Part shown: one piece after another, positions 44,528 to 60,400 of the stretch
Layout of the letters: each line of letters opens with the position of its first letter
How positions within the stretch are numbered: the stretch's first letter is position 1
Origin: Actinomycetota bacterium
GTDB lineage: Bacteria; Actinomycetota; Thermoleophilia; BMS3ABIN01
DNA length: 64,000 nucleotides
Reading direction: 5' to 3'
Assembly (NCBI GenBank): GCA_016235065.1
Contig: JACRMB010000010.1
Coordinates: 134,281 to 198,280, forward strand
Program-made: the position numbers and the translations under genes
Notes under the pieces: model-generated
The model's database searches: none
Told to the model about the DNA's origin: nothing
Seen by the model: the letters and a program-made list of their open reading frames with translations, nothing else

Positions 44528-44818
44528 TTACCAGCTGGCGGTCTTGCTCTCCTCGACCAGGCCCACAAAGCCAGCGTAGTCGACCTCAGTGATGCCATCC
44601 ATCACCTTGTCGACGCCGCGTAACTGCATGTCCTCCTTGAGGACGTAGACCTTGTAGTCACTGGCGGCGGCAGTCATTCTTTCAGCGACTGCGGTGCCTG
44701 GCATTGCCGCATAGATGCCATCCTCGTAAAGCAGGATGGACGAGCCCTTGTTAGCATACTTGAGGCAATCCTCAAGTGACATTGATTCGAATGGTGATTT
44801 ATTAATCAGGTGAAGCAT
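44528..44818 (-). CDS. dsrH: Sulfur relay protein DsrH (TusB)
   Basis: A 96-residue member of the DsrH/TusB family. In Allochromatium DsrE2F2H2 hands sulfane sulfur to DsrC. The conserved single Cys region appears as Cys 18 in MSLEDCLKYA. Last gene of the dsr operon, 11 bp after dsrF, with AAAGGAGC before the ATG. Confidence 0.9.
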   Translation of the reverse strand: MLHLINKSPFESMSLEDCLKYANKGSSILLYEDGIYAAMPGTAVAERMTAAASDYKVYVLKEDMQLRGVDKVMDGITEVDYAGFVGLVEESKTASW

Positions 44819-44829
44819 GCCGCTCCTTT

Positions 44830-45198
44830 CTAGAACATGAAGAAGTTCTTCTGCTCCTCCATCATCTTCTCGACTGCGTCGGCTTCGATGATCTCGGGTT
44901 CGATGACCAGGTCCTCGAGCGTAAGCCCGCGGGATTCCATGGATGTCCTGTCGATATAGATCTTTTCGATATCATAGGCTTCAAGGGCCCTGAAGGTTGG
45001 CGAGAAGTTCTTGATGCCGGTGCTGGAATTATCCATGCCGTTCTTGATGGCAAGCACGCCGTCATCGATGAAGAGCACGCTGACATCCTGATCGTACGCG
45101 CCCATGATGAGCACGTTCTCCAGGCCTTCAAAAGAATAGATCGATCCGTACGGAGCCGTGCGGAATACGACCATAAGTTTTGCCATTTCTTCACTCAC
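44830..45198 (-). CDS. dsrF: Sulfur relay protein DsrF (TusC)
   Basis: A 122-residue DsrE/F-fold protein (VVFRTAPYGSIYSFEGLENVLIM, VSVLFIDDGVLAI). It contains no cysteine, so sulfur transfer must use DsrE and DsrH. Starts with GTG; an ATG 12 bp later is possible. It lies between dsrE and dsrH. Confidence 0.9.
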   Translation of the reverse strand: MSEEMAKLMVVFRTAPYGSIYSFEGLENVLIMGAYDQDVSVLFIDDGVLAIKNGMDNSSTGIKNFSPTFRALEAYDIEKIYIDRTSMESRGLTLEDLVIEPEIIEADAVEKMMEEQKNFFMF

Positions 45199-45215
45199 TT
45201 GTAGTCACCTCTTCC

Positions 45216-45575
45216 TTAGGCTCTGAATTCAACGAGGCGGTCCGCCTCGATCGCAAGTTCTGTTAGCATTCCCAGGCCGCCGATCTTGAAGCCTTCGGCG
45301 ATGACGTCATCGTTGATGCCGCGCCGCTTGGCTGCGGCTACGCAGACGATGACATCGATGTTGTTGCTGGTCGCCAGCTCGGTCCACTGCTTCTGGATGT
45401 GACGGTCATCCGCCTGCGGATCCATCAGCTTGGTGGAGTTGAGTACGCCATCCTGATAAAAGAATACGCGCAGGATCTCGTGACCCTTGGCCAGCGCTGC
45501 CTTGGCGAACTGGTAGGCGCTGTCCGAAGCCTCGTGCTGATATGGCCCTTCCGTGATCAATAATCCAAATCTCAC
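45216..45575 (-). CDS. dsrE: Sulfurtransferase DsrE (TusD)
   Basis: A 119-residue subunit with the active Cys at position 78 (DVIVCVAAAKRRG), the same place as the catalytic Cys 78 of Allochromatium DsrE. It begins a dsrE-F-H trio with small gaps. The GTG start has AGGAAGGAG upstream. The trio is cut off from dsrL by a strong terminator-like hairpin, so it may be less expressed or have its own promoter. Confidence 0.93.
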   Translation of the reverse strand: MRFGLLITEGPYQHEASDSAYQFAKAALAKGHEILRVFFYQDGVLNSTKLMDPQADDRHIQKQWTELATSNNIDVIVCVAAAKRRGINDDVIAEGFKIGGLGMLTELAIEADRLVEFRA

Positions 45576-45673
45576 TTCCTCACTCCTTCCTGAATATCGT
45601 TTGACGATTTCACTTACTTTTCAACACCCTCCCGGCACAACTGCACTCCAGCCGCGCCTATGCCCGTGATGCT

Positions 45674-45725
45674 GATAAAAGGCGGCTGCCCCGGGAGAAT
45701 CCCCGGAAGACAGCCGCCTTTGAAA
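45674..45725 (-). terminator. Intrinsic terminator between dsrL and dsrE
   Basis: A perfect 11-bp stem (45678-45688 with 45711-45721) with an inner CCGGGG/CCCCGG stem and T/A-runs on both sides. On the minus strand it falls after the dsrL stop and before dsrE. Confidence 0.8.
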
Positions 45726-45756
45726 AACCAACCGTAAAGGCGATCCGCCTACGGCA

Positions 45757-47445
45757 TCAGGCCATATCGATGTAACCGCACGGGCATTCCTCTGCGCACT
45801 TGGCGCAGCCCACGCAGACTTCGAGCCTGAACTTGTACGGGTTGCCTTTCTCATCACGCTCGTCGAGTTTCTTGACGGCGCTGTAGGAACAGAACGAGTA
45901 GCAGTTACCGCAGTCGAAGCACATGCCGCAGCTCATGCAGCGGATGCTCTCTTCCTTGCACTGGTCATCTGTCCAGGTGGAGACGACCTCGTTGAAGTTA
46001 CCCTTGCGATCGTCGACGGGGATATGCTGCTTCTCCACCCTCGACGCCTCGGCATAGTAATTCAGCGCCATCTGGTCGGACTTGATGACCTTCAGCGGGA
46101 ACTCCTTGGGGATCTCCTCGCCGCGGATGTGATGATCCATGGCGTTGGCAGCCTTGCGGCCGAGGCCGATAGCCTCAGTCACGGTGCCAAGCCTGTTGGT
46201 CACATCGCCGCCGGCCCAGACTCCGTCTTCGCTGGTGGCTCCGGTGGCCTCATCTACGGTGATCCAGCCCTTCTCATCCTTGAAGGTGTCGAGTCCATCG
46301 AACTGGGCGCCCTGGCCGATGGCCGGCAGCACCATGTCGCAATCGATGACGAACTCGGAACCTTCGACGGGCTCCGGACGCCGGCGACCGCTGTCGTCAG
46401 GCTCGCCCAGCTCCATCTTGATGCACTTGAGACCGGTGACCTTGCCACCGTCGCGCACTATCTCGACCGGAGCAGTCAGGTACTGGATGTTGATTCCCTC
46501 CTCGAGGGTATCGTCGATCTCTTCTTCCTCAGCCGGCATCTCGTCGCGAGTACGCCGGTAGATGATCTCGGAATCCGCGCCCATGCGCCAGGAGACGCGG
46601 GCGGCGTCAACGGCGCTGTTACCGCCACCGATGATCAGCACTTTCTTGCCGCTGACGTCCATACTCTCGCCAGCGTTGACCTTGTTGAGGAACTCGACGG
46701 CGCTCATGACGCCTTCGCCTTCCTCGCCGGGGATGCCCATGGTCCAACCTTCGTGGGCGCCGATAGCGAGGTAGATCCCGTCATAGTCCTTCTTGAGATC
46801 GTCCATGGAGACATCGGTGCCAACGCGGGTGCCGTACTTGATCTCGACTCCCAGGTCGGTGATCGCCTTTACTTCGGCGTCCAGGATGTCTTCCGGCAGA
46901 CGATAGCTCGGGATACCATAGCGGAGCATACCGCCGGACTTCTCGAATGCCTCGAAGATGGTCACCGGATAACCCCGGCGGGCCATCTGGAAGGCAGCCG
47001 AAAGGCCAGCCGGACCCGAACCGACGACGGCGATCTTCTCACTCTTTGTCTCGTCGGTTAGCTTCTCGTGCTTCAGGTTATGCTTGAGTCCGAAATCACC
47101 CAAGTAACGCTCTACCTGGTTGATCGATACGGCGCCGTCCTTGGCGTTGCGGTTACAGTCTGTCTCACAGAAGTGCGGGCAGACACGGCCGATGATGGAC
47201 GGCAGCGGATTGGTCTCAGTCAGCAGGCGCCATGCCTGCTCGAAGGACTCGTCATATTCGCGCTTGAACATCTCCGTCTGGGAGACGGTCGTCAGGAAGC
47301 CGCGGATATCGTTACCTGCAGGGCAGGCGTTGCTGCAAGGCGGCGTCTTCTTGACGTAAGCCGGACGCAGGTGTGAACCTTCGCCGCCGCGGCTGTAACT
47401 GGCCGCGCCGATCTCTCGCTTTCTGATCTTTAATACTACTGCCAT
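45757..47445 (-). CDS. dsrL: DsrL-like NAD(P)H:acceptor iron-sulfur flavoprotein
   Basis: A 562-residue protein related to the small subunit of glutamate synthase. An N-terminal Fe-S region (PPCSNACPAGNDIRGFL...CPHFCETDC), an FAD motif VVGSGPAGLSAAF, an NAD(P) motif IIGGGNSAVDAAR and a C-terminal double [4Fe-4S] ferredoxin (CMSCGMCFDCGNCYSFC, then CVGCAKCAEECPCG) are visible. DsrL links NAD(P)H to DsrAB. It is essential in sulfur oxidisers and also occurs as a second type in some reducers or disproportionators. Here it follows dsrD. Confidence 0.9.
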   Translation of the reverse strand: MAVVLKIRKREIGAASYSRGGEGSHLRPAYVKKTPPCSNACPAGNDIRGFLTTVSQTEMFKREYDESFEQAWRLLTETNPLPSIIGRVCPHFCETDCNRNAKDGAVSINQVERYLGDFGLKHNLKHEKLTDETKSEKIAVVGSGPAGLSAAFQMARRGYPVTIFEAFEKSGGMLRYGIPSYRLPEDILDAEVKAITDLGVEIKYGTRVGTDVSMDDLKKDYDGIYLAIGAHEGWTMGIPGEEGEGVMSAVEFLNKVNAGESMDVSGKKVLIIGGGNSAVDAARVSWRMGADSEIIYRRTRDEMPAEEEEIDDTLEEGINIQYLTAPVEIVRDGGKVTGLKCIKMELGEPDDSGRRRPEPVEGSEFVIDCDMVLPAIGQGAQFDGLDTFKDEKGWITVDEATGATSEDGVWAGGDVTNRLGTVTEAIGLGRKAANAMDHHIRGEEIPKEFPLKVIKSDQMALNYYAEASRVEKQHIPVDDRKGNFNEVVSTWTDDQCKEESIRCMSCGMCFDCGNCYSFCSYSAVKKLDERDEKGNPYKFRLEVCVGCAKCAEECPCGYIDMA

Positions 47446-47544
47446 ACGCTTCTCCTTTTCTCAGGCGTCACCGCACCTGGTGATCAAGAGCCTTTTTTAA
47501 GTTGTCCTATCGCCCGGTGCGTTTTCGCCTAAGCGACTTTGCGA

Positions 47545-47790
47545 TTACTCGTTTGCGGAACCCTCTACGCGCGGAAGCTCGATGGAGCTGCCGCCGAAGT
47601 AACCATACACACACCGGCCGGAGTCGATGAGCGACTTGATGGCGGCTTTCGTGTCCGCGCGGGACACGTCGCCGTACTTTTCCTTCATCGCCTTGGTCAG
47701 GTCGCCGGCCTTGAGTTTCTTCTGGCCCGCTACGCTGGCGACGAGCTCATACATGTCATCAGCCAACTGCTCTACTGTGACTTCAGCCAT
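47545..47790 (-). CDS. dsrD: DsrD winged-helix protein
   Basis: An 81-residue winged-helix protein (KLKAGDLTKAMKEKY, DTKAAIKSLIDSGRCVYGYF). DsrD is found mainly in sulfate and sulfite reducers, where it activates DsrAB. The start at 47788-47790 has TAGGAGG upstream and gives the normal length. It is 13 bp after dsrB. Confidence 0.9.
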   Translation of the reverse strand: MAEVTVEQLADDMYELVASVAGQKKLKAGDLTKAMKEKYGDVSRADTKAAIKSLIDSGRCVYGYFGGSSIELPRVEGSANE

Positions 47791-47803
47791 TCTGCCTGAC
47801 CTC

Positions 47804-48880
47804 CTAGTATCTGTTGTGTAGAGACCTTCTGTAGGTCGTACCCGCGTGACGGAAGTCATCGAGGTGGTACTTGGTGAACTCTATACCGCTCATGTCGAAG
47901 AATTTCTCCCAACCGATGCGGTTGATCCACTCGCCTACACGCTCGAACGGACGGGCGTTAGCGGCGTACAGCTCGACAATCGACTTGACCGCGTCGGTGA
48001 CTTCAGGCCAGCGCGGCGGATTGTTCGGCAGGTACGGTATTGCCAGCTTCGTGAACATGGGTTCGCTTCTGGCGTTGGAGATCTTTCCTCCGACCCAGAT
48101 GGAGACGCCGTCGTTGATTGGATCGGCCAGCGGCATCGCCGGGCATACGGTGAAGCAGTTACCGCAGTACATGCACTTGTCTTCGTCGACCTTGACCGTC
48201 GTCTTACCATCAACCGAAGTCGGCCGGATGGCGTTGTTCGGACAGGAAGCGACAGTGGTCGGGATCTCGCACTGTTTCGGCAACGCTTCGTTGTCGATAC
48301 GAGGCGGCGTGCGGTGCAGACCGAGGATGGCGATGTCAGAGGCGTGGACGGCGCCGCACATGTTCAGGCAGCAGGCCACAGCCACGCGCAGTTTCGCAGG
48401 CAGCTTCTCTGATGTGAAGTACTCGGACAGCTCATCCATGACTGCCTTGACCAGACCCGAGGCATCGGTAGCCGCCGAATGGCAGTGTACCCAGCCCTGG
48501 GTATGGACCGGGTTGGAGATGGCGTTGTTGGTGCCGCCTACCAGGGTGCCCATCGCGTTCAGGTCGGCGATCAGCGGATCGATGTTCTCTTCCTTGGCGA
48601 GCAGGAACTCGATGTTGTTACGGCTGGTGAAACGGAAGTAACCGTCGCTGTACTTGTCCGCCAGGTCCATGATGTTGTTGAGGAAGTTTGTGCTCACAAG
48701 CCTCGGTGAAGCACAACGCACGGTGTAGATCGTTCCGGACGGCCCAGTATGGGAGAGTACGCCCGGTTTGATCGAGTCGTGGTACTGCCACTTGCCGTAG
48801 TTCTCCTTGATGATCGGATGCAGGAACTGCTCGTAATGAGGCGGTCCGATATCCGTGACTCTCTTTGCTTCAGTCGCCAT
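47804..48880 (-). CDS. dsrB: Dissimilatory sulfite reductase subunit beta
   Basis: A 358-residue subunit binding siroheme and [4Fe-4S]. Cluster/siroheme Cys are in [11 protein letters not shown] and [11 protein letters not shown], and the ferredoxin insert [12 protein letters not shown] follows. It is the active-site subunit that reduces sulfite to the DsrC trisulfide, or runs the reverse reaction. Paired with dsrA, 78 bp upstream. Confidence 0.98.
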
Positions 48881-48958
48881 AAATATAACCTCCTGTAACT
48901 GTCAAAGTTGACTCAGGACAATCCGCGAGGAATCGCGGGCCCTGCTTGGATCGCTTGA

Positions 48959-50167
48959 CTATTCCTCGCTTGCGCCTTCTCCCTCTTCTTCGTAGTACTC
49001 TTCGTAGAAGATGTAGGGATTGTCCCTCGGGGCCTTGACCATCTTCGGCGACGGATCTTCGCCGATACCTTCCAGGAAGGTCGCGAGGCTGATGCGCTCG
49101 ATGAACTCGCCGATGCGCTCGCGGGCGGTGCCGTGCTCATCCCAGAACTCCCAGATGCGCTCGAGCAGGTCGTGCAGCGGCTCGTAGTCGCCATCCTCGA
49201 TCTTCATGAAGGGGATGATGACCGAACCGAAGAGCGCGCCTTCCACGATCGGAGCCTTGGCTCCGAGGCAGATCGCGAAGCCCCTGTCGTCGCCCGGTGA
49301 AAGAGCCTTGGGCAGACGGTTGAGGCAATGCATGCACTTGACGCAATCGCTGTCGTCGATATTGATCTCCTTGCCCTCGACCGTGATGCAGCTGGTCGGG
49401 CAGAGGTCCACGACAGCGCCCTGGATGTCCATGCCGCTATCGACATACTCGGCAAAGGCAGCCTGGTCGACCTTGATCGCGTCGCGCCAGATACCGATGA
49501 TGCCCATGTCCGAGCGGGCGATGGCGGCGGTGCAGTCGTTCGGGCAGCCGGACATCTTGATCTTGTACTTGTAGTTGAACATGGGGCGGTGCAGCTCGTC
49601 CTGATAACTCTTCGTCAGGTTGTAGGTCATGTCCATCGTGTCATAACAGGCCATCTCGCAACGGGCGGGGCCGTTGCAGCAGCTGGGCGTACGGAGGTCA
49701 GAACCGGAGCCGCCAAGGTCCCAGCCTTTTTCCGTCAGGGCCCTGAAGATGGGCTCCAGCTCTTCCGTGCGGGTTCCGAGAAGGACCATGTCACCGGTGG
49801 AGCCGTGCATGTTGGTGAGGCCTGAGCCGTGCTCGTCCCAGATCTGCATGATCTCGCGGAGCGCGTCCGTGGTATAGAACCAGCCGGAAGGCTGATTCAC
49901 ACGAACAGTGTGAAAATGTGAAACGCCGGGATACTCTTCCGGCAGGGCTGAGTAACGGCCGATAACGCCACCGCCATAGCCCATGACGCCTACGAGGCCG
50001 CCGTGCTTCCAGTAGCCACGCCTGTCCTCATAGGACTTTTCCAGCTGACCCAGAAGGTCTTTGCACATGTCAGACTTGTCTACGCAAGTCTTGATGTCCG
50101 TGACAAAGCTGGGCCAGGGTCCCTTTTCCAGCTCGTCTAGGAGCGGAGTCTTGAGATCATCTGCCAT
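48959..50167 (-). CDS. dsrA: Dissimilatory sulfite reductase subunit alpha
   Basis: A 402-residue subunit with the siroheme-cluster motif SCCNGPARCEMACYDT and GCPNDCTAAIARSD, plus a ferredoxin region DDSDCVKCMHCLNRLPKAL. It forms the A2B2 enzyme with DsrB. Phylogeny of DsrAB could decide between reductive and oxidative type. It follows the dsrMCKJOP group in the same operon. Confidence 0.98.
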   Translation of the reverse strand: MADDLKTPLLDELEKGPWPSFVTDIKTCVDKSDMCKDLLGQLEKSYEDRRGYWKHGGLVGVMGYGGGVIGRYSALPEEYPGVSHFHTVRVNQPSGWFYTTDALREIMQIWDEHGSGLTNMHGSTGDMVLLGTRTEELEPIFRALTEKGWDLGGSGSDLRTPSCCNGPARCEMACYDTMDMTYNLTKSYQDELHRPMFNYKYKIKMSGCPNDCTAAIARSDMGIIGIWRDAIKVDQAAFAEYVDSGMDIQGAVVDLCPTSCITVEGKEINIDDSDCVKCMHCLNRLPKALSPGDDRGFAICLGAKAPIVEGALFGSVIIPFMKIEDGDYEPLHDLLERIWEFWDEHGTARERIGEFIERISLATFLEGIGEDPSPKMVKAPRDNPYIFYEEYYEEEGEGASEE

Positions 50168-50243
50168 TCCTGCTCTCCTTTGCTTTGATTGCGGTTGCTA
50201 GTCCTGCGGTTGCTTGATGTGAATATCAGGCGGTAAAAAAGCT

Positions 50244-51515
50244 TTAGGCCTGGGCTCCCTCTGCCAAACCTTCTACTGCCCCAACGCTCTCTTCTTCCTC
50301 AGTCTCCTCTACTGGCTCCTCAGCGTGGACGGGCTTCACGAAGATGCCCTCCCTCGGCATGAGCGGCAGCAGCTTCAGACCCATGAGGTATACGAGCCCA
50401 ATGAGAGCGAAAATACCAGCGAACTGGACCCATTCGACCAGACGCGGGATATAGGTGACGTTGATGCCGTCCTGGAAACCACTGGACAGCTCGTACCCGG
50501 GCAGGATCGGCTGAGCCAGCACCTGTCCGGGAAGGATGAACAGCATGCGCTCGCCGAGCACTCCGATGACGTGCATGACCGATGCGCCCAGGATCCAGCC
50601 GATCTTGTTCCTCGTAGCCGGGTTGAAGAGGATGAATATGGGGATGAAAAGCCCCACCAGGTACAGCTGCACCCAGAAGACGAAGGTAAAGAAATTGCCT
50701 CCGAACATGACGAACATCTCACCGTGCTGGAACTCGGGATCATACAGGTGAGTCAGGTGCTCGATGGTCACCAGGTAGAAGACGAAGATCATCAAAGCCA
50801 GCATGATCTTGGAAAGCTGCAGGTAGAAACGCGGGTCGATATAGCGCTTCGTGTATTTGAAAGTCAGGAAAAGCATCACCATCGCCAGCGCGGTTCCCGA
50901 AGAAAGGGCCGCGACTACAAAAGCGAGCGGCGTGATCGACGAGAAGTACATGTCGCGACCGTTGATGATACCGAAGATGAAGCCGGTGCCGGAGTGCACG
51001 AAGACGGCGGCTACGACCGCGGCGGTTCCCATGACATTGGTCCAGCGATCGCTCTCCTTGAACTGCGCCCAGAGGTAGAGCACACCGATGGTCATGTAAC
51101 TCATATAGATGAAAGCGTTCAGTGAGAGCATCGAACGCGGATTGATCATGTAGAAGGGAAGGAACAGGCGATCCGGGCGGCCCCAGTCGGAGATGAGGAT
51201 GGAGAGCGCGCCCACCATGAACAGCACCGAGTTGAAAGCGGCTACCCTGGAAAGCACCTTGTATTCCTTCTGCTTGAAGATTACCGCGAGTCCCGAGATC
51301 ATCAGAGAACCGGCGCTAAGACCCACGAACAGCACAAAGATAACCTTGGCGCCGCCCCAGGTCACCGAAGTGCTCTGGCCGGTCAGATAGAAGCCCTGCG
51401 TGAACCTGATGAGAGTTGCCACAAGCCAGCCGAGTACCAGGCCCGCGCAGATAGCGCTGGCGGTCCAGAAACCCGCGCTTTTACCATCGATTCTGGAGAA
51501 ATAGTAATTCGCCAC
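50244..51515 (-). CDS. dsrP: DsrP, NrfD-type quinol-interacting membrane subunit
   Basis: A 423-residue integral membrane protein with about ten TM helices of the NrfD/PsrC family. It exchanges electrons between the quinone pool and DsrO/DsrJ in the DsrMKJOP complex. The acidic C-terminus (PVEETEEEESVG) is cytoplasmic or linker-like. Next to dsrO. Confidence 0.95.
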   Translation of the reverse strand: MANYYFSRIDGKSAGFWTASAICAGLVLGWLVATLIRFTQGFYLTGQSTSVTWGGAKVIFVLFVGLSAGSLMISGLAVIFKQKEYKVLSRVAAFNSVLFMVGALSILISDWGRPDRLFLPFYMINPRSMLSLNAFIYMSYMTIGVLYLWAQFKESDRWTNVMGTAAVVAAVFVHSGTGFIFGIINGRDMYFSSITPLAFVVAALSSGTALAMVMLFLTFKYTKRYIDPRFYLQLSKIMLALMIFVFYLVTIEHLTHLYDPEFQHGEMFVMFGGNFFTFVFWVQLYLVGLFIPIFILFNPATRNKIGWILGASVMHVIGVLGERMLFILPGQVLAQPILPGYELSSGFQDGINVTYIPRLVEWVQFAGIFALIGLVYLMGLKLLPLMPREGIFVKPVHAEEPVEETEEEESVGAVEGLAEGAQA

Positions 51516-51558
51516 TACGACCTCTCAGTCCCTGAATTAGAAGTTGCTGTAATCACGA

Positions 51559-52368
51559 TCATCCCAAGACCTTCTCGAGAACGCCCTCGTTCTTGGACAG
51601 GCCCAGATAGAACACGTTCGGCTCGAGCTCCATGTTCGGCCTCAGCGTCAGCGTCTGGCCGTCGGCGATCATCCGGGTCACTTCCTGCCGCTTCTCGTTG
51701 CGGTTGCCGAACTTGAGAGCGCCCATCGGGCATTTCTCGACGCAGGCAGGTTTCTCGCCGGCTTCGAGGTCCTTGTGAGCGCAGAAAGTACACTTGGTGG
51801 CGACGCCCAGCATCATCGCGGGCACCTTGGTGTTCTGGTCTTCCGGCGGGATCGGGTTCTCGCGGAACACGATGGTCCTGGCCCGGAAGGGGCAGGCTAT
51901 GACGCAATACCGGCAACCGATGCAGCGGTGCTCATCGATGAGGACGATGCCGTCCTTTTCCCGACGGAAAGAAGCCTTGGTGGGGCATACATCGACGCAT
52001 GGAGGCTTCGTGCAGTGCTGGCACAGCAGCGGGATCGGCCGTGCGTCGATCTCGGTGTCGGAGACTTCCTGCTCCATCTCCCCTACCCTGATCCAGTAAG
52101 GCGTGTAGCGCTTGGCGTCCTCGCCATAGACAGCCTCAAGATTGGGGACGTTGTTCTCCTCGCGGCACGCCTCTTCGCATTTCTTGCAGCCGTCGCACTT
52201 GTTGAGATCGACGGTCATGGCGTACTGTATGGAATCCTTTTTCGAGCTCCCGGAGGAGGCCATGGTCGACGTCACCAGCAGCTGTGACGCCGGCAGCGCG
52301 GCGCTTGCCGCAGCAACCAAACCACCCAGCTTCAGAAACGCTCTTCTATCCATTCCTTCGTTAGCCAT
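51559..52368 (-). CDS. dsrO: DsrO, Tat-exported iron-sulfur subunit
   Basis: A 269-residue ferredoxin-like protein. The twin-arginine signal is MDRRAFLKLGG. Four [4Fe-4S] cluster groups follow: CDGCKKCEEAC, CQHCTKPPCVDVCP, CIGCRYCVIACP and CTFCAHKD...CVEKCP. Periplasmic or outer-face partner of DsrP and DsrJ. Confidence 0.95.
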   Translation of the reverse strand: MANEGMDRRAFLKLGGLVAAASAALPASQLLVTSTMASSGSSKKDSIQYAMTVDLNKCDGCKKCEEACREENNVPNLEAVYGEDAKRYTPYWIRVGEMEQEVSDTEIDARPIPLLCQHCTKPPCVDVCPTKASFRREKDGIVLIDEHRCIGCRYCVIACPFRARTIVFRENPIPPEDQNTKVPAMMLGVATKCTFCAHKDLEAGEKPACVEKCPMGALKFGNRNEKRQEVTRMIADGQTLTLRPNMELEPNVFYLGLSKNEGVLEKVLG

Positions 52369-52431
52369 TGCTTGACCTTTTCTCCCTTTGTCTTTTTAGG
52401 CCGCGGCCCGGTCAGGGTAATCCAGGTTGAA

Positions 52432-52866
52432 CTATTCCTTATAGCCTTCGGGACGGAACGAACGGGGCTGGTCCTCGGTCGAGTGGCAGCCGCCTGTCTG
52501 ATCCATACACCCGGGCTGAACGCCGTTGTAGTTATGGCACTCTTTGCAGAAGTCCTCGTACTTGTGGCAGCTGAAGCAACGCTCGATCTGGAAACGCTCG
52601 TCGCGCTCGCCCTCACGTACCACCTTGACGCGCTCGTTCTTGAGCTCTTTCATGTGGTTGACGCGCATATAGTCCTTGGTTGATTCCGGCGTGCCACCCC
52701 GGGCGCCGCCGTCCGTGGCGACACAGATTGTCGTGTCGGCCTCGGTGCCCTTGGTCAGGTCCGGAGCCTCTTCGGGGCTGCCGAGCTTGCCGCTGGCGGC
52801 ATTGACCAGCACCGGTGACGCCAGGACCAGCAGGAAGATTATTGTTGCGATAACGGCTTTTTTCAT
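52432..52866 (-). CDS. dsrJ: DsrJ, multiheme cytochrome c subunit
   Basis: A 144-residue exported cytochrome with a signal peptide (1-23). Two canonical motifs, CFSCH and CKECH, are present. The third, usually CxxCH after the Y/N-GVxP block, here reads CMDQTGGCH (CX6CH). The start overlaps the dsrK stop by four bases (ATGA), so translation is coupled. Confidence 0.9.
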   Translation of the reverse strand: MKKAVIATIIFLLVLASPVLVNAASGKLGSPEEAPDLTKGTEADTTICVATDGGARGGTPESTKDYMRVNHMKELKNERVKVVREGERDERFQIERCFSCHKYEDFCKECHNYNGVQPGCMDQTGGCHSTEDQPRSFRPEGYKE

Positions 52867-54446
52867 TCTTTTGCTCCCAGTTCAATGGCGCTGGCGACTA
52901 ACTGATGGACGCCGCCAGCCACTTCCATGCTGACACCGTACTTCGGAAGGATCTTGGTGAACTGTGCCTTGCAGATGGCGCAGATCAGCGCCAGGAAGTT
53001 GACTCCGTGCGATTCCTGCACCTTGCTGAAAGCCTGCATCCTGGGCATTGCGCCCTGGACGCGCAGTTCCAGCAGGTCGTCGGTCAGTAGACCGCCGCCG
53101 CCGCCGCAACAGAAGGTCCTCTCCTTGATGGTATCCTCATCCATCTCCACGTAATTGTTGCAACTCGCCTTGATAAGCTCGCGCGGGATGTCAAACTGGC
53201 CGTTGGGCCTGCCGCCCATACCGGCGCCGCGGGCAACATTGCAGGAATCATGGAAAGTGACGACGCGGTCGTCGTTCTGGGATTTATCTAGCTTGATGGC
53301 CCCGCGGTTCACGAGGTCCAGAGTGTATTCACAGATATGCTGCGGGCGGGGAAAATTCGGATCCAGCGAATCGAATGGTCCGATCAGCGTGTTCCAGAAG
53401 GAATACGCAACCCTCCAGGCGTGGCCGCACTCGCCGACGATCACTCGCTTGGGCTTGATCTCGCGGATCGCGTCAGTCAGCCGTGATGCGACTTTCTGCA
53501 TCTGGCCGTAGTTACCGATGAACATGCCGAAGTTGCCGGCCTCGGAGGCGGCGGAGCTGAATGTCCAGCTTACTCCTGCCTGATGGAAGACCTTGGCGTA
53601 ACCAAGTAACGATTCCACGTGCGGTGAGGCGAAGAAATCGGCTGAAGGAGTGATCATGAGTACCTCAGCGCCCACCTCATCGAGTGGCAGCCTGATCTTC
53701 TTGCCGGTCTCTTCCTCCAGGTCCTCTTCAGTGGACTCGAGAGTCGCGCCAAGGGCTTTGGGGTTCATACCCAGGTTGTTGCCGACGTCGTGGACCTTGA
53801 CAATGATGTCGTTCACATACTTCTGGCCGACTCCGATGTGGTCCATGATCTCGCGGGCCGCCATGGAGATCTCAGCGGTATCAATGCCGTAGGGGCAAAA
53901 GACCGAACAGCGGCGGCACTGGGAGCATTGGTGGAAGTAGCTGTACCACTCACCAAGCAGCTCCAGGTCGAGCTTCTCGGCGCCTGCAAGCTTGCCGAGT
54001 ATCTTGCCCTCGGTGGTGAAATATTTGCGGTAGACTTTGCGGAAAAGCTCGGCGCGGGCGACCGGCATGTTCTTGCCGTCCTCGGTGCCAATGAAATAGT
54101 GGCACTTGTCGGTGCAGGAGCCGCACTTGACGCAGATGTCCATATAGACCTGAAGGGACTTGTACTTCTCCAGCAGGTCGCCCATCTTGGCGATGGCCGC
54201 GTCGTGCCAGTCCTCGCGCAGATCGGTGGGAAAACCCAGCTTCTCCATGGCTTCAGGCTTGCAGAGGTACGGCTTGTTGCCGGCTGCTGAGCCTTCCTTC
54301 ACCTTGGGGATCTTTATGGAACCCGTCAGCTCGTCAGGATGGATCTCGTTCGGCTTCTTCCTGGGAACTGAGGGTTCGCCGACCTTCTCCAGGTCGGTCA
54401 AAACTTTTGGTTCTTCTTCGGTTGCTGTTGCCTCTTTATCTGCCAT
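52863..54446 (-). CDS. dsrK: DsrK, heterodisulfide-reductase-like subunit
   Basis: A 527-residue cytoplasmic iron-sulfur protein related to HdrD. A ferredoxin pair (CVKCGSCTDKC, CSQCRRCSVFCP) and CCG-type domains (GECGHAWR, SCNVARGAG, TFCCGGGGGLL) hold the special catalytic cluster that is thought to reduce the DsrC trisulfide. It pairs with DsrM. Confidence 0.97.
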   Translation of the reverse strand: MADKEATATEEEPKVLTDLEKVGEPSVPRKKPNEIHPDELTGSIKIPKVKEGSAAGNKPYLCKPEAMEKLGFPTDLREDWHDAAIAKMGDLLEKYKSLQVYMDICVKCGSCTDKCHYFIGTEDGKNMPVARAELFRKVYRKYFTTEGKILGKLAGAEKLDLELLGEWYSYFHQCSQCRRCSVFCPYGIDTAEISMAAREIMDHIGVGQKYVNDIIVKVHDVGNNLGMNPKALGATLESTEEDLEEETGKKIRLPLDEVGAEVLMITPSADFFASPHVESLLGYAKVFHQAGVSWTFSSAASEAGNFGMFIGNYGQMQKVASRLTDAIREIKPKRVIVGECGHAWRVAYSFWNTLIGPFDSLDPNFPRPQHICEYTLDLVNRGAIKLDKSQNDDRVVTFHDSCNVARGAGMGGRPNGQFDIPRELIKASCNNYVEMDEDTIKERTFCCGGGGGLLTDDLLELRVQGAMPRMQAFSKVQESHGVNFLALICAICKAQFTKILPKYGVSMEVAGGVHQLVASAIELGAKE

Positions 54447-54569
54447 TAAATGCTTTCCTTTCGGAGACTAAAAGTGCCACTGCCGGCACTTATAAAGCAG
54501 CCTGAGCCGCTTCCGCACAAAGGAATTAACGCCCGCCCGTACTGAAACTTTCCTTATTGAAACTGGATC

Positions 54570-54607
54570 AGAGGCCGGCCGCGCCGGAAACCGCCCGGCC
54601 GACCTCT
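54570..54607 (-). repeat. Hairpin between dsrC and dsrK
   Basis: A GC-rich 12-bp stem (54570-54581 with 54596-54607, one mismatch) lies 30 bp after the dsrC stop. There is no T-run. It may stabilise or process the dsrMC part of the transcript. Confidence 0.6.
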
Positions 54608-54638
54608 GGATAAACGCCCTAAAACAAGCTGATCCGGA

Positions 54639-54974
54639 TTAGACGCAGCCGGTCGGCTTCGGGAGCCCGGCGATCTTGCAGGCCTGGAGGGCCGGACCGG
54701 CGGGATACAGGTCATAGAGGTAGGCGCTGTTGCCCTTCTCCGGACCGAACATCTTCTTCATTTCCTTGATGAGGATCTTGATTGCGGGAGCGATGTTGTA
54801 CTCGCTGTAATAGTTGCGCAGGAAGTTGATGACTTCCCAGTGCGCCTCGGTCAGATCCACACCCTCGAGGTCGGCGATGTACTTGGCGACGTCCTCGTTC
54901 CACTCGTTGAGGTCTACCAGATAACCGTCATCATCTGTCTCATATGTCTTGCCGTCGATATCGAAGCTACCCAT
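54639..54974 (-). CDS. dsrC: DsrC sulfur carrier protein
   Basis: A 111-residue protein with the flexible C-terminal arm LQACKIAGLPKPTGCV. Both conserved cysteines are present: Cys 99 (CysB) and the penultimate Cys 110 (CysA). These form the trisulfide product of DsrAB, so this is a true DsrC and not TusE. It lies between dsrM and dsrK, an unusual place. Confidence 0.97.
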   Translation of the reverse strand: MGSFDIDGKTYETDDDGYLVDLNEWNEDVAKYIADLEGVDLTEAHWEVINFLRNYYSEYNIAPAIKILIKEMKKMFGPEKGNSAYLYDLYPAGPALQACKIAGLPKPTGCV

Positions 54975-55103
54975 TTTGCATTTCCTCCTGTTTGTATGAC
55001 TTGCCTTGGTCCCCGGGGCCCTGATCGCCTGTCCCCGGCCTATATTAAGAGAGCAGTCTGCTCGGTGGAGCGCCTCTCACTTAACCACTACCACTATGTC
55101 CCG

Positions 55104-55180
55104 GGGACATAATTCTTTGTGTCCCCGGACTAATACTCTGCGCGGGACATGATCATTCGTGTCCCTGGAGTAATACTCTT
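55104..55180. repeat. Duplicated GTGTCCC-type element between dsrM and dsrC
   Basis: Two ~38-bp units (55104-55140 and 55143-55180), each built as gggacat-a/gat-tgtgtccc followed by gga-taatactct. Each unit can fold on itself. The same gggacaca/tgtgtccc theme occurs in the cluster at 44381-44510. The rest of the dsrM-dsrC gap (54975-55184) holds no gene. Confidence 0.7.
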
Positions 55181-55184
55181 GCTT

Positions 55185-55970
55185 TTACGCCTTTGCTGGT
55201 GCCTCCGCGACCTCTTCTTTTACCGTGACAACAGTGTTGCCTGAGATATCCGCGGCCCACGGGGCTACCAGCCGCTTTTCGCGCGGATTGTCTACCTGGT
55301 TCCTGGTCGGGCTGAAGAAGACACCGGCTGCGTGCATCAGCTTGCTGAACGGGAAGTATGCCAGCAGGAACAGCACCAGGCTGAAATGGATGATAAAGAT
55401 CGTCTCCGAAGGGAAATCAGTCGCCATCGGCTTGAAGGCGACCAGGCCCATCATGAACTCCTTCACCTGGGTGATGTCGACCCGGTAGAAGTGCTTGGCC
55501 AGGGTACCGGTGAGCGCGATGGAGATGAGCAGGATGATGAGGATGTAGTCGGTCATGACTGAGATGAACATGTTACGGTCGACCACCAGGCGCAGCAGGA
55601 AAAGGAGGCCGAGGCCGCCCATCATGATGATGCCCGGATACATCTCGAAAGTGTCGAAATAGCTGAGGCCGGCGGGGACGCTGGCGAAGAGAAAACGGTA
55701 GTGCTTGACGAGGACTAGCAGAAGGCCGATGTGGAAGACGTATCCGGCCAGCCAGATGACCCGGTTGCTCTTGAAAAGGCTCTTGAAGAGCACTACTTCG
55801 GAAAGCACCCGCACGGGAACACCGGTAGCGGTCACAGGGGCTGGCGTCTGCGGGATCTTCAGTGGCGCCGGAGTGGTGCCATATTTCCAAACCTTGGCGA
55901 GAACGCCTACCAGAAAGATCGCTAGTGCCGCGTAACCGAGAACCACGAATAATGCTGTCAAACCGCTCAC
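55185..55970 (-). CDS. dsrM: DsrM, NarI-like cytochrome b subunit
   Basis: A 261-residue membrane protein with about six TM segments and conserved His residues (YVFHIGLLLVLVKHYRF, IIHFSLVL) that bind heme b. DsrM passes electrons from menaquinol to DsrK. It is the first gene of the operon, starting with GTG preceded by AGGAAGAGG. Confidence 0.95.
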   Translation of the reverse strand: MSGLTALFVVLGYAALAIFLVGVLAKVWKYGTTPAPLKIPQTPAPVTATGVPVRVLSEVVLFKSLFKSNRVIWLAGYVFHIGLLLVLVKHYRFLFASVPAGLSYFDTFEMYPGIIMMGGLGLLFLLRLVVDRNMFISVMTDYILIILLISIALTGTLAKHFYRVDITQVKEFMMGLVAFKPMATDFPSETIFIIHFSLVLFLLAYFPFSKLMHAAGVFFSPTRNQVDNPREKRLVAPWAADISGNTVVTVKEEVAEAPAKA

Positions 55971-56320
55971 ACCTCTTCCTGTTCAATGGAGAGTTCGCAC
56001 TCTACGGACTGACTTGGAAAGGAACAACCGCGTGAAAAAGCACACTGGCGCAGAAATCCCCACCCGGTACCCCCCGGGGCATTGGCAAAGATATCACGCT
56101 GATTCGGAATGTGTCAAACTAAAAGAGACAAACCCGCCCGCCCAGCGTGATTCGAAGACCTTAATACCTTAGAGGGTATACGGAGCAAGAGGAAATCTAC
56201 ACCCGATTCTGGCTCTTGTCAATAGTGATTTTTGATTCAATCTGAGTGGTGGCGGGGTGGGGTCTATCCAGCGGTGGTATTACGTGGAACCAGCGGGTTA
56301 ATCCGGCTTGATATTCACTT
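55971..56320 (-). promoter_or_regulatory. dsr operon promoter region with two candidate promoters and a long leader
   Basis: Distal promoter: TTGACA (56217-56222), 17-bp spacer, TAGATT (56194-56199), giving a leader of about 215 nt before dsrM. Proximal candidate: TTGACA (56112-56117), 18 bp, TATCTT (56088-56093). The region is AT-richer than the genes and contains a small dyad (ATACC/GGGTAT, 56164-56180). No gene is seen here. Confidence 0.65.
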
Positions 56321-56989: not shown

Positions 56990-57475
56990 TTAAGCTTTGT
57001 AAAGAGGGTCGCTCTCACTTGTCCATCCAGATTCAATTCTGTGGACGAGCATGATGTCGTTCCAAGTACCCGGCATTACCGGAAGCTTCTTTTGTTCTGG
57101 TGTTAGTTCGCCGACTTTCCGGTCGTTTTCGCCATCCCAAAGCCACCAAACCGAAACCTGGCCGGTTTCGGGATCTATAATACCATCCCTGAATAGCGGA
57201 AGCTCTTTCCATTCCTCTGGCACTGCTTCATTTCCCACGACAGTAACAACTTGACGGTTTACATATATGGCGAGCGGAAAAAAAGCGATAAAGCGTTCCT
57301 TTTCCTTTACCAATTCAGAGAATGAGCTGGGTCTCTTTTTGAAAAAACCTGGGAGGATTCTAATAAGCGCACCGTATCTGGGCGGCTTGTCGTGCTTAAA
57401 CGTAAACTGCGCGTAAGCAAGCCCTTTTTTTGTTTTGATCTCAATGACATCGCCTATCTTTACTCTCTTTGGCAT
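56990..57475 (-). CDS. Putative immunity protein for the RHS nuclease toxin (Imm26-like)
   Basis: A 161-residue cytoplasmic protein beginning MPKRVKIGDVIEIKTKKG, with YGALIRILPGFF, FIAFFPLAI, VSVWWLWDGEN and LPVMPGTWNDIMLVHRIESGW. The beta-rich opening 'GDVIEI-x-GLAYAQ' resembles Imm26-type immunity proteins. It starts 8 bp after the toxin stop, the standard toxin-immunity layout, which is the main support. Family membership is from memory and needs a profile search. Confidence 0.6.
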   Translation of the reverse strand: MPKRVKIGDVIEIKTKKGLAYAQFTFKHDKPPRYGALIRILPGFFKKRPSSFSELVKEKERFIAFFPLAIYVNRQVVTVVGNEAVPEEWKELPLFRDGIIDPETGQVSVWWLWDGENDRKVGELTPEQKKLPVMPGTWNDIMLVHRIESGWTSESDPLYKA

Positions 57476-57483
57476 ATCTTCTC

Positions 57484-60400
57484 CTAAAATCCTGAATAGC
57501 TTGCCGATTTCAGCAACTCTCTACCTCGAATGACAGATTCCTCGTAGATAGGATTGTTTCTTGAAATACTATTGATTTTATTCAGAAGAGTGCCTCCATT
57601 TTTCTGAAGACCATGATGTTCTATCAATAGCTGCTCAGCAGCCCGTGCTTCGGATCGGGGTAGATCGACGAGACCAGGAATTCTTTTAATATTTAGACCC
57701 CTTCTTGCTTGTTCGGCAGTCCGACGTTCGATGTTATTAGTTATACCGATGTACTTGACCTTGCCGGCCTCGTCTATTGCCCTGTAAACTGTTGCAAGCT
57801 TACCTTGGGCTCGTTCAATCTTCGCAATCTTCGCAAGTTTTCCTAACTTCCCCAGCTTCCCCCCGGGTACGAAATTCAGCGCGATGAACCCCATGGCCCC
57901 GAATCTCTCATTAAGGCTCGCGTCAGCCGAGAACAGCACCTTGAAGTCCTCGATGAAGAAGTCGTTGGCGAACTGGCCGGTGGCGTCCCAGAGCATCGAA
58001 GGGTTGTTGTAGCCGATCTGAACTCCATTCCACCACTCGCCAGCAGCGTCGCCGGTCCAGCTGGCGGCGTCCTTGATGTTATCCCCTATGCCGGGGCCGC
58101 AGGTAGAAAGGCCGGTTAAGTCGTACCGGGTCAGCGGGTTATTGGTAGCGTAGGCGTAGCGGTTTCTTTGCTGGGGATCAGTGGCAGATCCTTTTAACGG
58201 ATCTGCACTGGTGAAGCGGCCCAGGGAGGGGTCGTACTCTCTTGCTCCCATCCTGATAGTGCCGGTCAGGTTGTCTTTGTCTCGCTGCCATTTACCGGTG
58301 TAGCCGTTAGTGGGGCTGGCTGAGTTAATGGCGTTACCGAAGGCGTCGTAGCGGTATGAGGCGGTTACGGTGCCGTTATCGTCTGTTAGGGCGCTGGTGT
58401 CGCCATGGGGGTTATAGAGATGGTAGCTGGTTGCCGGTGTCTGGCCGGTGTAGTCGGTCTGGCTGATGAGGCCGTCCGCGCCCTGGAGGTAGGAGCTTTT
58501 GAGGGTGGTGGTGGCGTTGGTTTCGTAGTCTGCTACGTCGCTGCCGGGGCTTAGGTGGTAGTTGGTTGTGTTTGCACCCTCGCTTCTTTGTATCCTTCTG
58601 CCCTGGGCATCGTAGGCGTAGCTCACAGTGGCGGTGGGTGTGGCTACTTCGGTCAGTTTGTCGAGGCCGTTATAGGCATAGGTGGTGGTTTCGGAGCCGG
58701 TGGTTTTCTGGGTCAGGGCGCCAATGGGGTTGTAGGAGAAGTCAGTGATTTCCTGCCCGTTGGTCAGCTGGGTTAGCTGGTTGGCCTGGTTATAGCTGTA
58801 GCTGGTAAGGCCGGAAGTTGGTTCTGATAGAGTCGAACGATTGCCGGCTGGGTCATATGAATAGCCTATCGCGCCGTAGCCGGTTATATTCTCAGAGGTG
58901 AGGCGATTCAGGGCGTCGTAGGAGTAGGCGATCGAACCAAGGCCAACCTGATCCATGGCCGTGATGTTTCCAGCGGCATCATAGGTCTGGGTGAACGATT
59001 GCAGTGTCTGACCGCCCATTGTCGACTGCAGGGCGGTGAGTCGGTTGGCTACATCGTAGCTATAGCTTGTTGCGACACCGTTGGCATATGTCTTGCCCGC
59101 GAGATTGCCCGCCGCGTCAAAAGTGAAGCCGTTTGTCTCGGCGCCTCTGGTCACGCTCTTTAGCTGGCTTCTTGGAGTGTACTGATATGAAGTGATGAAG
59201 CTCTCTCCGGCAACGCTATCCTGGCGCTGGGTCAGATTGGCTGCGTCGTCGTAGGTGAAGCTCTCGATGGCGCCGTGGGCGTCGGTCGACTGGGTGAGCA
59301 GGCCCATGGAGTTGTAACTGGAGCTGACAGTCTTTAACGTCGCTTCCTCAGTCGCAGTCAGCTGGTTCTGATTGGCGTCATAGGTGAAGCTGTATGTGGC
59401 GCCCTGACGGTCGGTTACTGCAGTGAGATTGTAGACATCGTCGTAACCGAAGCTAATCGAGCCATCAGCAGTCGTGTCTTTGACCGGATTGCCGGTCTTG
59501 TTATACAAGTAGCTGCGCTCAAGCAGATAAGAGCCCGAGCCGGCGTCAACCTTCTCACTGATCAGTCTGCCAAGCTCGTCATATTCGTATGCGGTTGAAT
59601 GACCGTTGGCGTCTATCTGCCCGGTGCGGTTGCCATTATGGTCGTAGGAGTAGGAAGTGACGCCGCCAGGTGCATCGGTAACCCCAATGAGCAGATCGCT
59701 GGCGCTATAGCTCATATCAGTCTCGTAACCGCGCTGGTCCCTGACCCTGACCGGATTGCCGACGCCGTCATAGCGGTAGCTGACGCTGCCTCCGAGCGGA
59801 TCGGTCGCTGTCTGCAGCCGTTTCAGGGTGTCGTAAGCATAGCTATAGCTGTGTCCGGCAGGGTCGGTGCTCGACAGCAGGTTATCGGACTGGTCATAGG
59901 CGTAGTTTGTTATCCTCAGGGCGCCGCCTTCATCGGGCTCGGTCAGCGAGATCTGCCTGCCGAGTGCGTCATAATTACTGGTCACGGTCTGGCCCAGGGG
60001 ATCGGTAGCAGAAGTCTGGTTTCCTTCAGCGTCATAGGAGAACGTTGACTCGTGGGCTTCGGGATCGATGACCGAGACCAGCCGGTCGTTCTTGTCATAG
60101 CCGAAGTAGGTCCAGTTGCCATTACGATCTTTGGTGGCGGTTTGTTTATAGACAGCGTCGTAGGTGTTTTCAATGGTATTTAGCCTGGCGTCGGTGATCA
60201 GGCTCAGCTTATCCATCGCCGTATAGGCAAACGAAGTTGTCTTGCCTTCGGGGTCGATGACCATGGTTTTGTTGCCGGCGCCGTCGTAGCGGTATTCGGT
60301 AACAAGGTCTTCCGGAAGCTGTGTCTCGGGATTGGTTACCTGGGAGCGCACGAACCTCAGATTGCCGATGGGATCGTACTCGAAGGTGGTCTCGTGACCG

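Follow-up and report, generated by a model that had tools for sequence, protein, structure and literature searches.

The analyzed DNA (hereafter the window) is a stretch of 64,000 nucleotides from an Actinomycetota bacterium of the class Thermoleophilia (assembly GCA_016235065.1, contig JACRMB010000010.1), and the subject of this work is the dsr gene cluster that it carries. The cluster consists of 13 open frames on the minus strand, running from position 55970 down to 44528 in the order dsrM-C-K-J-O-P-A-B-D-L-E-F-H. A preliminary description of the window, made from the sequence alone, had listed these 13 genes on one strand and in this order, with dsrC between dsrM and dsrK, and both the open frames and the profile searches confirmed it. 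The NCBIfam curated cut-offs were passed by DsrK (52863..54446; NF045796, 563 bits, cut-off 400), DsrO (51559..52368; NF045797, 230 bits, cut-off 200), DsrA (48959..50167; TIGR02064, 555 bits), DsrB (47804..48880; TIGR02066, 480 bits), DsrE (45216..45575; TIGR03012, 136 bits), DsrF (44830..45198; TIGR03010, 115 bits) and DsrH (44528..44818; TIGR03011, 95 bits), whereas DsrM (55185..55970; NF038037 cytob_DsrM, 178 bits, cut-off 300), DsrJ (52432..52866; NF038038, 50 bits, cut-off 100) and DsrP (50244..51515; NF045798, 78 bits, cut-off 350) fell below them. DsrC (54639..54974; PF04358, 152 bits) has both C-terminal cysteines (C-terminus ACKIAGLPKPTGCV), dsrL occupies positions 45757..47445, and the gene between dsrB and dsrL (47545..47790) encodes a divergent DsrD-like protein of 81 aa. 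The spacing between consecutive genes ranged from a 4-nt overlap to 210 nt, the widest gaps being those between dsrM and dsrC (210 nt), dsrC and dsrK (192 nt) and dsrL and dsrE (181 nt).

The genome of the window (2.37 Mb in 10 contigs; completeness 98.87%, contamination 0.57%) was compared with those of its relatives. Among the nearest named relatives, DsrL was 95%, 92% and 92% identical to that of metagenome-assembled genomes (MAGs) titled Thermoleophilia, and 85% and 84% identical to that of MAGs titled Actinomycetes. The comparison covered 12 genomes, seven of them from the family of the window (f1; all f1 members in a sample of 396 genomes) and five added on the basis of DsrL (84-95% identity). 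A second, oxidative-type dsrA2-B2-L2 set was found, whole or in pieces, in 10 of these 12 genomes. The order dsrL1-A2-B2-L2-E-F-H was contiguous in five genomes (L061, L062, L063, L064 and L066); in G403 (L035), which is closest to the window by the DsrAB tree, the contig ends within the start of dsrA2, right behind dsrL1, and in G402 the second set lies on other contigs, with gene fragments between dsrL1 and dsrE. No second dsrAB-L set was found in the MAG of the window (G000) or in the DeMMO3_11 MAG (G399, loci L037/L133), each with one dsrB over the cut-off. In both, the 13 genes stand in identical order and dsrE directly follows dsrL, with no set in between. In another relative, G400, an IS110-like transposase gene recognized by eye (L127:2301-3407, plus strand) adjoins dsrL and may have severed the connection with a second dsr set.

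A chimeric contig, a possibility raised in the preliminary description, was rejected on the basis of the same gene order in DeMMO3_11, of the G+C content of the cluster, close to that of the window (0.576 vs. 0.582; 0.54 for dsrEFH and 0.53 for the right flank), and of the dsrL-dsrE spacer common to the window and L133, with 85 of 94 aligned columns identical. The window grouped with G403, which has the oxidative set, in the trees of DsrAB (99), DsrL (87) and DsrEFH (90/97). In the dsrL-dsrE region the window matched the tail of the G403 dsrL over eight bases only, and the BPL_N-like gene next to dsrEFH was 70% identical to those of G399 and G402 vs. 60% to that of G403. The simplest explanation places dsrEFH at its ancestral position, with loss of the dsrA2B2L2 set together with a dsrE promoter; one loss followed by recombination in G403 and two losses both fit, while acquisition of the second set by the other genomes would be a less parsimonious, though possible, history. 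A lineage that lost its oxidative set but retained dsrEFH behind a reductive operon is, as far as the available parts of the main texts in the open-access literature searched are concerned, not described before. Alternatively, the oxidative set might be present in the organism and have fallen out of the assembly, as contig breaks near the two dsrAB sets are frequent in MAGs of this group (L059/L060, L125/L126 and L129/L130). This is highly improbable, however, given the completeness, the low number of contigs and the single dsrB over the cut-off, and given that one contig spans dsrL and dsrE and that L133 carries the same junction.

The preliminary description had presented the genes as a single run, which holds for the strand and for the gene content, but a strong hairpin interrupts the gap between dsrL and dsrE. 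This terminator-like hairpin (45678..45721, minus strand), found by folding and not listed by a consensus terminator scan, belongs to a 106-nt stretch with a folding energy of -49.1 kcal/mol (z -4.5; none of 200 shuffles reached this stability), is followed by U's, and is common to the window and L133; therefore, dsrEFH may be only partly co-transcribed with the upstream operon. A promoter-like TTGACA-N17/18-TACGAT site preceded dsrE in 9 of 12 loci and was absent from the window and L133 (L130 being masked there). Upstream of dsrM, the consensus scan gave two promoter-like sites on the minus strand (TTGACA-17-TAGATT at 56194..56222 and TTGACA-18-TATCTT at 56088..56117), both with counterparts in all seven genomes considered, that of the window included (eight loci, two of them from one genome). 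Since the frequency of promoter-like and terminator-like sites across the region was no higher than in shuffles, single promoter-like sites are taken here on the strength of their conservation.

The models passed by DsrE, DsrF and DsrH are those of type I, and DsrE Cys78 and DsrH Cys18, each the only cysteine of its protein, are kept; Cys78 is presumably the catalytic cysteine of DsrE. The ratios of nonsynonymous to synonymous substitution rates (dN/dS) between the window and G399 were 0.12 for DsrE, 0.07 for DsrF and 0.09 for DsrH, next to 0.05-0.09 for dsrA, dsrB, dsrL and dsrC. Of 24 dsr-bearing Actinomycetota genomes, 21 had a DsrE over the cut-off (the exceptions were one genome of family f24 and both of family f26), and nine of the 10 dsr-bearing f24 genomes combined it with a single dsrB over the cut-off. 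In total, DsrE in the absence of a detected oxidative dsrB was found in 11 genomes (the nine of f24, G000 and G399). As dsrEFH is conserved in a genome without the second set, DsrEFH is not linked solely to the oxidative enzyme.

Convergent with dsrEFH is the BPL_N-like gene (PF09825; 42991..44331, plus strand), which lies beside dsrEFH in 11 of the 12 loci (L128 ends at dsrH; about 3 kb intervene in L126) and has a relative with 52% identity adjoining dsrEFH in the f24 locus L149 (9252-10577, minus strand). The same f24 genome (G060) carries a gene similar to sulfide:quinone oxidoreductase (SQR), recognized by eye (L149:10967-11968, minus strand), at about 3 kb from dsrE and about 47 kb from dsrAB, and a gene 83% identical to it is found near dsrE in G137.

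A TusBCD-like role, in which DsrEFH would deliver sulfur to tRNA thiolation and would sit next to dsr as a relic of the lost oxidative set, is considered quite unlikely. It would agree with scores over the cut-offs of the TusC-only and TusD-only models (NF001238, 87 over 79 bits; NF001237, 124 over 92 bits), with a single DsrE-type gene over the cut-off in the genome and with the hairpin, which may uncouple dsrEFH from the operon; the TusB-only model, however, was not passed (NF010035, 53 under 104 bits), DsrE is widespread among the dsr-bearing Actinomycetota genomes (the only ones in which it was searched for), and an SQR-like gene is close to dsrE in f24.

The type of the sulfite reductase was assessed with an unrooted tree of DsrA plus DsrB containing 51 of 52 pairs (L108_1, with DsrA cut at the locus end, was dropped). 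The DsrAB of the window fell outside the oxidative-type clade, the split having a value of 100 in the Shimodaira-Hasegawa-like approximate likelihood ratio test (SH-aLRT). The non-oxidative side held the window, 10 first-set pairs of its relatives, eight f24 and two f26 genomes and 19 Desulfobacterota, and the oxidative-type side 11 pairs, namely three alphaproteobacterial sets and the second set of the relatives; the second set of G402, in unpaired pieces (L131 and L132), was outside all DsrAB trees. In a careful tree of 24 pairs rooted between DsrA and DsrB, the DsrA of the window grouped with Desulfobacterota (100/99), and oxidative DsrA did not form one clade. A sulfur oxidizer with oxidative DsrAB or SoxB, which the preliminary description had kept in view, was rejected: the only dsrB over the cut-off lies outside the oxidative clade of the unrooted tree, and SoxB, the one sox gene searched for, had no match in the genome.

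DsrL passed the NAD(P)-binding model PRK12771 (638 bits) and matched no DsrL-only model. Its NAD(P)-binding domain has the YRR motif (IIYRRTRDEMP) that marks DsrL-2, a feature tied to NADP(H) by Loffler 2020 (PMC7596348; here and below, statements on the literature refer to the parts of the papers available to us). This settled the question of type 1 or type 2 left by the preliminary description, and use of NADPH is predicted for this DsrL. In the DsrL tree it grouped with the f24 sequences, apart from the DsrL2 of the relatives.

The 81-aa protein encoded between dsrB and dsrL is probably a divergent DsrD, as judged from position, profile-profile comparison and fold. The gene occupies this place in the first set of every spanning f1 and f24 locus read, and a relative of it follows dsrB in one Desulfobacterota genome (L113). 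In hhalign comparisons the probability was 94 against seven canonical DsrD; it rose to 96 once three intermediates were included, and stood at 81 for those intermediates by themselves. Structure prediction gave a winged helix (predicted local distance difference test score, pLDDT, 86), and a fold search recovered DsrD (1wq2) with a template-modelling (TM) score of 0.77 by target length, at rank 24 behind Fur-type regulators, with no PDB match at E<0.001. No Pfam, NCBIfam or PDB sequence match bearing on DsrD was obtained.

Elsewhere in the genome, contig C5 carries a sat-aprB-aprA-qmoA-qmoB-qmoC cluster with an adenylate-kinase-like gene (by eye) upstream, in which qmoC exceeded its cut-off and qmoA and qmoB were assigned by position and by an HdrA2 match below the cut-off. 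Sat, aprAB and qmoABC, which the preliminary description had reported as missing from the window and proposed to look for, are thus present outside it, sat and aprA with one match each in the genome and aprB and qmoABC beside them. A gene of the CdhC/AcsB type (734 aa) suggests the Wood-Ljungdahl pathway. A haem-copper oxidase was rejected as a candidate, the sole COX1 match being a protein of 156 aa. This is the gene set of a sulfate reducer that may also be equipped to cope with oxygen and sulfide.

Since DsrAB outside the oxidative clade occurs here together with a DsrD-like protein, DsrL-2 and Sat-AprBA-QmoABC, reduction with NADPH through DsrL-2 is the simplest interpretation. The cluster is thus read, with somewhat more confidence than doubt, as an operon for NADPH-linked sulfite or sulfate reduction in which DsrEFH loads sulfane sulfur onto DsrC. 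NAD(P)H-driven sulfite reduction via DsrL was also the claim of the preliminary description that came out best supported, given the YRR motif, the unrooted position of DsrAB, sat-aprBA-qmoABC and no SoxB found. Sat would activate the sulfate, which AprBA, together with QmoABC, would then reduce to sulfite; DsrAB would in turn reduce the sulfite with electrons from NADPH via DsrL-2, the DsrD-like protein assisting. The product of DsrAB would leave on DsrC and be released by DsrMKJOP. DsrEFH would load DsrC with sulfane sulfur from polysulfide or thiosulfate, zero-valent sulfur joining the same carrier, and the sulfur on DsrC could be reduced via DsrMKJOP or oxidized by reversed DsrAB. The direction of these fluxes, the transfer from DsrEFH to DsrC and the use of NADPH are what we infer from the gene sequences.

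Several results weigh against this interpretation. In the careful rooted tree, a clade uniting the set of the window with oxidative sequences was not rejected (DsrA, p of the approximately unbiased test, p-AU, 0.29), and in a quick paralogue-rooted tree (32 pairs, as in its AU tests) such a clade was the likelier one (p-AU 0.70 for DsrA and 0.75 for DsrB). The quick tree was dropped as decisive for DsrA after the AU tests found trees of higher likelihood with another grouping; in view of these results the unrooted split is relied upon and the rooted position of DsrAB is given as tentative. The DsrAB of the window may be transitional, and the rooted results agree with the transitional position given to such genomes by Klier 2024 (PMC11406059). 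The DsrD-like protein had no PF08679 match up to E 10, while a canonical DsrD used as control scored 74 bits. The dN/dS values between G399 and G402 were 0.32 for DsrF and 0.34 for DsrH, at low dS, and as simple pairwise estimates may include time before the loss. DsrK grouped with two alphaproteobacterial sequences (98/99), apart from Desulfobacterota (the rival grouping, with p-AU 0.07, was not rejected; one f24 sequence, L071, fell with Desulfobacterota), and DsrC was 58-61% identical to two alphaproteobacterial DsrC and 48-54% to seven from Desulfobacterota, its tree having two starred branches only. The alphaproteobacterial sets are termed oxidizers from their dsrAB-EFH-CMKL content, not from known physiology. 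Because DsrC and DsrK are nearer to these two sets than to Desulfobacterota, the operon is a mosaic, with DsrAB of one affinity and DsrC and DsrK of the other. In addition, a CydA match followed by a CydB-like frame (by eye) represents a bd oxidase, and contig C3 has two tandem SQR-like genes (252 and 230 bits with the type III SQR model, cut-off 525), which together would permit oxidation of sulfide. Reversibility and disproportionation, the other options of the preliminary description, are kept here as hypotheses.

With sulfide and traces of oxygen, polysulfide from SQR would then pass through DsrEFH and DsrC to DsrAB, which would yield sulfite with reduction of NADP+ via DsrL-2, and AprBA and Sat would lead on to sulfate. 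We regard this bidirectional operation as possible but rather doubtful. The type I DsrEFH kept with its cysteines, the tandem SQR-like genes (below the cut-off of their model), the cytochrome bd genes and the nearness of DsrC and DsrK to oxidizer-type sets speak for it, as does the role proposed by Plum-Jensen 2026 (PMC13293266) for type II DsrEFH with reductive DsrAB; on the other hand, the lineage lacks the dedicated oxidative set of its relatives, SoxB was not found, the DsrD-like protein is kept, and reversal of such DsrAB in vivo is hypothetical. As to the deletion itself, it is tentatively suggested, at odds clearly below even, that reductive-type DsrAB took over both directions once dsrA2B2L2 was gone, one DsrABL-2 serving sulfate reduction as well as sulfur oxidation, with type I DsrEFH, now directly behind the reductive operon, feeding a DsrC that is of oxidizer affinity, like DsrK, or else that zero-valent sulfur passes to DsrMKJOP in a sulfur respiration independent of DsrAB.

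Variation was also observed in DsrJ. Its third haem motif is CX6CH in all nine sequences of the window's type (window, L133, L127, L129, L059, L067, L069, L070 and L073), which is either a non-canonical haem c site or the mark of a lost third haem; a third CXXCH was present in 10 of 10 other three-motif DsrJ compared. In genus g3 (L061, L062, L063 and also L065) DsrJ has two CXXCH motifs and the third is absent (four of four), and in L061, L062 and L063 neither dsrO nor dsrP was detected in the interval from dsrJ to dsrA. Beyond the dsrM end of the operon, the minus strand of the window encodes an open frame of 2161 aa (57484-63969) that is rich in RHS repeats and whose C-terminus has a weak GIY-YIG match, below the cut-off; after it comes a frame of 161 aa with no Pfam match (56990-57475). 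The two resemble a polymorphic toxin of the Rhs type and a possible immunity gene.

Type I DsrEFH is commonly taken as a marker of sulfur oxidation (PMC7596348, PMC10591310, PMC13293266), and reductive dsrAB is reported in only 2.4% of the genomes with it (PMC13293266). The mixture of markers noted in the preliminary description stood as regards type I DsrEFH and DsrL-2 beside non-oxidative DsrAB; its DsrD part lacks a Pfam match and is supported by profiles, position and fold. Close relatives that differ by one cassette (oxidative dsrAB-L) with dsrEFH kept form a natural deletion series, in which what DsrEFH does next to a reductive DsrAB can be tested directly and which cautions against reading the direction of the pathway from gene presence alone. 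The mosaic is relevant to the transition from reduction of sulfite to oxidation of sulfur that has been proposed (Klier 2024, PMC11406059).

Published work on SURF_19, ACT_02/ACT_11, Aquicultor and SAR324 already contains this mixture of genes and almost this order. In cable bacteria, DsrEFH is likewise a sulfurtransferase paired with reductive DsrAB (PMC13293266), but of type II, while that of the window matches the TusBCD/DsrEFH (type I) models. In Aquicultor (Actinomycetota; two genomes named), reductive DsrAB, DsrD, DsrL-2 and DsrEFH occur in one genome (Diao 2023, PMC10591310), a likeness in gene content; for co-location of dsrEFH with the reductive operon the available parts of that paper give no description. 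The Thermoleophilia MAGs ACT_02 and ACT_11 from Cueva de la Mora (PMC9326234) have a reductive copy near dsrMKC and DsrEFH present and expressed; unlike the window, they carry an additional dsrAB copy, of oxidative type, close to dsrEFH. They probably belong to the window's family, as L043 (B_ACT_02) is identical to the f1 genome G381, ACT_02 being equated with it by name. SURF_19 (Gaiellales) and GCA_003599855 are taken as one genome by inference from their descriptions (Loffler 2020, PMC7596348; Diao 2023, PMC10591310). Its order, dsrNMCKJOPABDL-2-hyp-dsrEFHABL-2, was published in 2020 (PMC7596348), so that the order called unusual in the preliminary description is only partly so. Its first dsrAB set was classed as oxidative by Loffler (PMC7596348) and as reductive by Diao (PMC10591310). 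Like the window, it comes from a deep-subsurface Actinomycetota, with DsrL-2 and with dsrMCKJOPABDL-2 followed, after one hypothetical gene, by dsrEFH; unlike the window, which has one set, it carries dsrAB three times, including another dsrAB-L-2 behind dsrEFH.

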